Positions 58,659 to 60,354 of a DNA stretch of 64,000 nucleotides are shown piece by piece (positions within the stretch are counted from its first letter, which is position 1; every line of letters begins with the position of its first letter). Under the pieces are notes generated by a model. That model was not told the origin of the DNA. It worked only from the letters and a program-made list of their open reading frames with translations, and made no database searches. The DNA is taken from positions 1,502,586-1,566,585 of the forward strand of contig LJIE01000001.1 of the NCBI GenBank assembly GCA_001281695.1, read 5' to 3'. The translations under genes and the position numbers were made by a program. The stretch comes from a bacterium 336/3 (GTDB lineage Bacteria > Bacteroidota > Bacteroidia > Cytophagales > Thermonemataceae).

Positions 58659-58690
58659 AAGATTCCAAAATTTTAAAATTTTGGAATCTT
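58659..58690. terminator. Perfect 32-base palindrome
   Basis: AAGATTCCAAAATTTT joined to its exact complement makes an uninterrupted 32-base palindrome downstream of the interrupted SMI1/KNR4-like gene and upstream of the superoxide dismutase gene. It can fold as a hairpin with an AT loop. The T-run is short, so terminator or regulatory element are both possible. Confidence 0.5.
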
Positions 58691-58724: not shown

Positions 58725-59174
58725 TTATTGTACTTGTTTCAAATAAGTTGATAAATATTCCCATTCTGCGATTTTAAGCCATCTATTTGTGATGTCGTCT
58801 TCATGACACCATAAATACAGTAATATAGATGGATTTTCTAAACTCTCTCTCTAATCTAGAGCAAGTGGTGTATCTGAACCCCATCCAAAATCTGCAAATA
58901 AAATGTATTTTTGATAATCAATATCAACAGGAGGCATTATATCTGTTGGAGAACTTATAATATTATCTTTCCACCTTGGTATAGCAAGTGTTTCCCTTTC
59001 AGCCAAAGGTAAGTCATAAAAATCAAGGTCTTTAATTTCTGGAAAAGAATAAATATCTCCAAAAATGGAATAAAAAGGTGCTATTTTATCAGTGAGAAAC
59101 TTGATAACTGCTTGCCGACAAGTATCTTTGATACTGAAGAGATAAAGAACTTTTTTCTTAACTAAAATATCCAT
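58725..59174 (-). pseudogene. SMI1/KNR4 (SUKH)-like gene interrupted by one in-frame TAG
   Basis: From ATG 59174 the frame reads 107 codons to LFADFGWGSDTPLALD, then a TAG at 58851-58853. The same frame continues without break for 41 codons (RESLENPSILLYLWCHEDDI, NRWLKIAEWEYLSTYLK) to a TAA at 58725. The parts join as one coherent SMI1/KNR4-like domain; homologues usually have Tyr or Leu where the TAG sits. It follows mnmA by 4 bases. SUKH proteins are often immunity proteins. It may be a dead gene, a recent null, or read through. Confidence 0.75.
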
Positions 59175-59178
59175 AACA

Positions 59179-60354
59179 CTACGCAATCACTCCAGAGCCA
59201 ATCAATTCTTCGCCATCATACCAAGCCACAAACTGCCCAGGGGTTACGCTTTGCTGTTTTTCATTGAAAATAACATATAAACCTTCTGCTTCTTGGTGTA
59301 GAGTAACTTTACTGAGTGGCTGGCGATAACGAATACGAGCCATATAATCACGTTTTTCACCAATATTCATTTTTAAGTCTTCTCGAATCCAGTGTGTATC
59401 AGGGTTTGCCACAAAAAGCCCTTTTCTGTTAAGTCCTGGGTGGTCGTTGCCTTGTCCTACATAAATTACATTTTTTTCTACATCAGTAGCTATTACAAAC
59501 AAAGGTTTGGGCTTTCCACCTACCTGTAAGCCTTTTCGTTGCCCAATCGTATAAAAATGAGAGCCAATGTGTTCTCCCACTACTTTTCCATACTCTGGTT
59601 CATAACGAAAAGGTGCAGTGAGGCTTTCGAGCGTATCTTGCGTATTTTGCTCAGAAAAAACAAAGCTATCAGCATTAATTTCAATAATTTTACCAGTTTT
59701 GGGTGATAATTGTTGTTGTAAAAATTCGGGCAAACGAATTTTACCTACAAAACAAAGTCCTTGAGAATCTTTCTTTTCGGCTGTAATCAGGTCTATTTTT
59801 TTTGCAATAGCTCTTACTTCAGGCTTGAGCAAGCCACCAATCGGGAAGAGAGCCTTAGAAAGTTGTTCTTGAGTGAGTTGACACAAAAAATAGCTTTGGT
59901 CTTTATTGGGGTCTTTGCCTGCAAGCAGACGGTGTACTATTTTTCCATCTTTTTCAATGCTATCTTTTTGGCAATAATGTCCTGTAGCCACATAATCAGC
60001 TCCTAATTGCATGGCTGCTTTCAAAAATACATCAAATTTAATTTCTCTATTACAAAGCACATCAGGGTTGGGCGTTCTGCCTGCTTCGTATTCTGCAAAC
60101 ATATAATCTACAATACGTTGTTTGTATTCTTTGCTCAAATCCAGCACACGAAACGGAATATCTAGCTTTTCAGCAACAATGAGGGCATCGTTACTGTCTT
60201 CTATCCAAGGACATTCGTTATTGATTACGACCGTTTCGTCATGCCAATTTTTCATGAAAATTCCAATTACTTCATAGCCTTGTTCTTTGAGCAAATAGGC
60301 TGAAACACTTGAATCAACACCACCAGAAAGCCCTACAACAACTCTTTTCGACAT
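59179..60354 (-). CDS. mnmA: tRNA-uridine 2-sulfurtransferase
   Basis: MnmA thiolates U34 of tRNA Lys, Glu and Gln with sulfur from a relay. The 391-residue protein has the PP-loop [14 protein letters not shown] near 9-22, ATP-binding [10 protein letters not shown], the first catalytic Cys in [13 protein letters not shown], the substrate Cys in GLCFVGK, and the C-terminal [14 protein letters not shown]. Length is normal and all motifs are present. It is divergent from the patatin gene and is followed by the interrupted SMI1/KNR4-like gene. Confidence 0.97.

Follow-up and report, generated by a model that had tools for sequence, protein, structure and literature searches.

An in-frame TAG codon interrupts a SUKH-1-like gene directly behind mnmA

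Organisation of the locus

The window analysed here, a stretch of 64,000 nucleotides, carries a broken SUKH-1-like gene on its minus strand. The features of this locus are, from mnmA onwards:

59179 to 60354, minus strand: mnmA (tRNA 2-thiouridylase), directly upstream of the SUKH frame, with a gap of 4 nt
58854 to 59174, minus strand: codons 1-107 of the SUKH-1-like frame, from the ATG to the codon preceding the TAG; homologous to relatives from about residue 46
58851 to 58853, minus strand: the in-frame TAG, codon 108; tyrosine in eight of eight relatives
58728 to 58850, minus strand: continuation of the frame for 41 codons beyond the TAG; homologous to the final strands and helix in the relatives' domain
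58725 to 58727, minus strand: TAA stop of the same frame
58659 to 58690, no strand assigned: perfect 32-nt palindrome 3' of the SUKH frame, possibly a hairpin that terminates transcription in both directions; present once in the genome

The gene starts with an ATG (59174-59172), and its translation reads MDILVKKK...LFADFGWGSDTPLALD up to the TAG and RESLENPSILLYLWCHEDDITNRWLKIAEWEYLSTYLKQVQ from there to the second stop. Read through the TAG, the protein would have 149 residues; truncated at it, 107. An earlier note on this DNA, made from the sequence alone, had described a frame that continues for 41 codons past the TAG to a proper stop, coupled to mnmA by only 4 bases; it did not name the strand. 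Both statements hold (TAA at 58727-58725; end of mnmA at 59179, start of the SUKH frame at 59174), and the interruption of the gene by an in-frame TAG is confirmed as an observation. The ATG is well placed behind mnmA, and between it and the TAA there is no frameshift and no stop other than the TAG. The 41 post-TAG codons contain no ATG at which translation might restart. On both sides of the TAG, codon preference in the coding frame beats that in the other two minus-strand frames; a plus-strand reading of 58725-59174 was rejected because it is closed. The openness of the 41 codons proves little in itself, since it has a chance of about 4% at the local base composition, and the argument rests instead on homology.

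The palindrome at 58659-58690 is AT-rich and lies between the SUKH frame and a superoxide dismutase gene. With its flanks it folds far better than shuffled sequences (z = -5.2), and it is possibly a terminator.

Relatives align across the TAG

Scanning genome contigs with a single protein returned no relatives; an alignment-based scan of genome contigs returned six loci, one of them encoding the same protein as L011; applied to a further sample of the phylum, the alignment-based scan added none. We compared eight distinct relatives: L010, from a genome of the same order; L011 and L012, from two further genomes of the same class; and L053 to L057, from an uncultured Saprospirales bacterium, Flavilitoribacter nigricans, Tahibacter soli, a Woeseiaceae MAG and a Planctomycetota MAG, respectively (L052 is the same protein as L011 and was counted with it). 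L010 shares 41% identity over residues 48-137, L011 44% and L012 35%; for L010 and L011, this identity of 41-44% extends across the later two thirds of the frame. The distribution is patchy, with a relative in one of 147 other related genomes and two among the other genomes of the class that were sampled. A phage or plasmid origin of the gene was rejected, as the phage, plasmid and viral collections held no relatives.

The earlier note had named the residue at codon 108 as a point for comparison, and a lack of homologues aligning across the TAG as evidence against its reading. All eight relatives align across the TAG, and all eight have a tyrosine at codon 108, within an LDY motif in seven of them (L057 reads LYY). 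Taken alone, the 41 post-TAG residues score 70, 67, 42 and 69 against L010, L011, L012 and L053, with shuffles averaging about 24 (z = 11.9, 10.2, 4.3 and 10.0). The post-TAG residues are homologous to those of the relatives, and the post-TAG frame is therefore an inherited coding frame.

The N-terminus is a different matter. Against the four relatives tested (L010, L011, L012 and L053), residues 1-60 give z values from -0.9 to 1.9, which is no detectable homology, and the first 45 or so residues match none of them. None of the local alignments starts before residue 20, and two of three start at residue 47. The LP...G.W motif that opens the relatives' domain is missing or diverged in the window copy, and it is also absent from the other minus-strand frames. 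At 149 residues, the read-through copy is shorter than the four closest relatives (about 169-179). Judging from these alignments, the 5' part may have been lost when the gene arrived behind mnmA, or may simply have diverged. With the first 45 or so residues unmatched, the TAG is possibly not the only damage, and the gene could already have been dead when the TAG appeared. The earlier note's proposal that one base change (TAT or TAC to TAG) explains the break is not supported in the form given: every relative has a tyrosine codon at the site and the frame is homologous, but the change leaves the N-terminus unaccounted for.

Family assignment

Against the Pfam SUKH-1 (SMI1_KNR4) profile PF09346, the read-through frame scores 15.5 bits, below the curated cut-off of 25.4 bits, in a match that does not begin until position 47 of the profile's 125; the 107-residue form has no match. 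Its intact relatives L011 and L012 exceed the cut-off (their two scores are 30.9 and 26.2 bits), with L010 and L053 no more than 0.5 bits away from it. Because the window copy itself scores below the cut-off, its filing under SUKH-1 rests on these relatives, through which its assignment as a broken relative of the SUKH-1 (SMI1/KNR4) proteins is supported. The SUKH/SMI1-like label given by the earlier note is in this sense upheld through the relatives but not by the gene's own profile score. The frame resembles SUKH-1 proteins in aligning with relatives across the TAG, and differs from them in its interruption, its unmatched N-terminus and its sub-threshold score.

Searches of NCBIfam, PADLOC and PDB sequences gave no usable match. 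A structure model of the window frame had low confidence (pLDDT 52), compared with a pLDDT of 77 for an intact relative, and neither model had a significant match in a PDB structure search. The structure models, that of the intact relative among them, place two strands and the final helix downstream of the TAG position. Elsewhere in the same genome there are nine further PF09346 matches (L001-L008 and G000:C1:1962047-1962436), all in unbroken frames; five of the nine are in open frames of 254-794 codons, which makes a multi-domain or multi-SUKH architecture possible for some of them.

Gene neighbourhood

We checked the window for the neighbours of the SUKH gene: mnmA, superoxide dismutase, a response regulator, an LRR protein, a patatin, a helix-hairpin-helix protein, a SpoIIE-type protein and, from its sequence, what we take to be a DnaX-like ATPase. 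No toxin gene was recognised among these neighbours, nor were there any neighbouring immunity genes or an immunity array. We call the SUKH gene an orphan because it has no adjacent toxin gene or immunity array. The surroundings of the relatives that were read likewise contained no recognisable toxin, which bears out the earlier suggestion of a possible orphan. The gene is also absent behind mnmA in all three other genomes of the genus compared; there, the next gene after mnmA encodes a short-chain dehydrogenase, and no SUKH gene lies between the two or beside them.

TAG usage and tRNA genes

TAG is an ordinary stop codon in this genome. In the window, 11 of 65 genes stop at a TAG, among them mnmA, and a survey of 1.28 Mb of the genome found it at 179 of 1059 gene ends. 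A coding-like in-frame continuation follows 2 of these 179 TAG ends and 5 of the 880 other ends (p = 0.34), and in both of the TAG cases the continuation reads as a neighbouring gene of its own, with a different start. The survey used a threshold of 4; the post-TAG piece of the SUKH gene scores 1.9 and is too short for the survey to detect. Genome-wide recoding of TAG was rejected on the ordinary stop usage and on this 1.28-Mb survey, in which pieces of so short a length go undetected. Pyrrolysine decoding was also rejected, as there is no PylS above the cut-off. A literature search for amber suppressors in Bacteroidetes found nothing.

One of the 64 tRNA matches in the genome has the anticodon CUA (G000:C4:25872-25944; L079:53-125). 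It lies on C4, a plasmid-like contig of 91 kb with genes that, from a reading of their sequences, presumably encode a ParA-like and a Rep protein. Its score is the lowest of the 64 (37.6 bits), and while the acceptor stem is fully paired, the D-stem and T-stem contain mismatches and the fold is no better than that of shuffled sequences. No full-length match to it was found in the relatives' genomes, phages or plasmids. These sequence features point more to a decayed tRNA than to a working suppressor.

The tRNA genes elsewhere include an unusual tandem array of six tRNA-Leu genes (L061; G000:C2:110726-111241) on a 189-kb contig, with the anticodons aag, taa, tag, taa, tag and caa in that order. 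There are two further mixed tRNA arrays (L067, G000:C1:1003282-1003749, and L073, G000:C1:3344330-3347340), and in one of them the anticodons include uncommon ones, Asn(att) and Val(aac) for example; ordinary single copies are found elsewhere.

Interpretation of the broken gene

In our view, the locus is best read, with good confidence, as an orphan SUKH-1-type gene that was acquired and then struck by a genuine nonsense mutation, leaving a non-functional product. The lineage would have acquired an orphan immunity-type gene behind mnmA, presumably by transfer, and a nonsense mutation at the conserved tyrosine codon would then have inactivated it. Translation would end at residue 107, leaving out the final beta-strands and the C-terminal helix of the domain, and a product truncated in this way would not be expected to fold into a working immunity protein. 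We infer that the break is recent because there is no frameshift and the post-TAG residues are well kept. The gene is probably an ordinary pseudogene, recently broken, rather than a new decoding trick.

The unmatched N-terminus suggests another order of events, in which the gene was dead on arrival, having lost its 5' part on landing behind mnmA, and the TAG was a later hit on a relic. The lack of homology in residues 1-60, the short length of the copy and the late start of its Pfam match all point this way. Yet the ATG is favourably positioned relative to mnmA, the frame has neither a frameshift nor a second premature stop, and several relatives, whose N-termini diverge too, also match the Pfam profile only with the later part of their own sequence. 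We regard this order as unlikely, and the weight we give it overlaps with that of the nonsense-mutation reading. It is somewhat less likely still that an error of sequencing or assembly produced the TAG and that the cell carries an intact gene. A single-base difference would suffice, but the assembly is of good quality, with 13 contigs, 99.3% completeness and a main contig of 4.1 Mb, and coding-like in-frame continuations follow only 7 of the 1059 gene ends in 1.28 Mb, some of them apparently separate genes or antisense frames.

Two further explanations would leave a working protein. The 107-residue form retains ADFGxGSD, the most conserved stretch, and might function by itself; we find this improbable, as it lacks the conserved NRW and the last strands and helix found in nearly all relatives, and no relative of 107-residue length was found. 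More improbable by a little is that an amber-decoding tRNA reads the TAG through and a full-length SUKH protein is made. The well-kept post-TAG frame and the CUA tRNA on C4, with its paired acceptor stem, fit such decoding. Against them stand the ordinary use of TAG as a stop in the window and at the surveyed gene ends, the lack of a significant excess of continuations at TAG ends, the poor quality of the tRNA (the weakest of the 64, mismatched in its stems and without a full-length match in relatives) and the absence of PylS above the cut-off. We found no evidence for functional readthrough of the TAG in the SUKH gene. That an active C4 tRNA reads some amber codons, the SUKH gene working only while this contig is present, seems to us highly improbable.

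Comparison with known systems and implications

SUKH immunity proteins bind and block a delivered toxin. Among immunity superfamilies in polymorphic toxin systems, SUKH is reported to have the widest toxin range (PMC3482391), and orphan SUKH genes with a protective effect in gut Bacteroidales have been described (PMC12247911). Like the orphan SUKH genes of the Bacteroidales rAID arrays, the window gene lies away from any toxin and is strongly diverged; unlike those dual-SUKH genes, which form recombinase-linked arrays and have been shown to protect cells (PMC12247911), it is lone, single-domain, broken and situated behind mnmA. It also bears a likeness to the SUKH genes of polyimmunity loci, which serve as back-up immunity against the toxins of others (PMC3482391), but it has neither neighbouring immunity genes nor a toxin.

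For annotation, the gene should be marked as a pseudogene whose N-terminus is at odds with those of its relatives. Were the CUA tRNA on C4 active, it would bear on natural amber suppression in these bacteria. As we read it, with transfer, an immunity role and loss of function all inferred, the locus would be one more case of turnover among orphan immunity-type genes, gained, unlinked to a toxin and lost by mutation.
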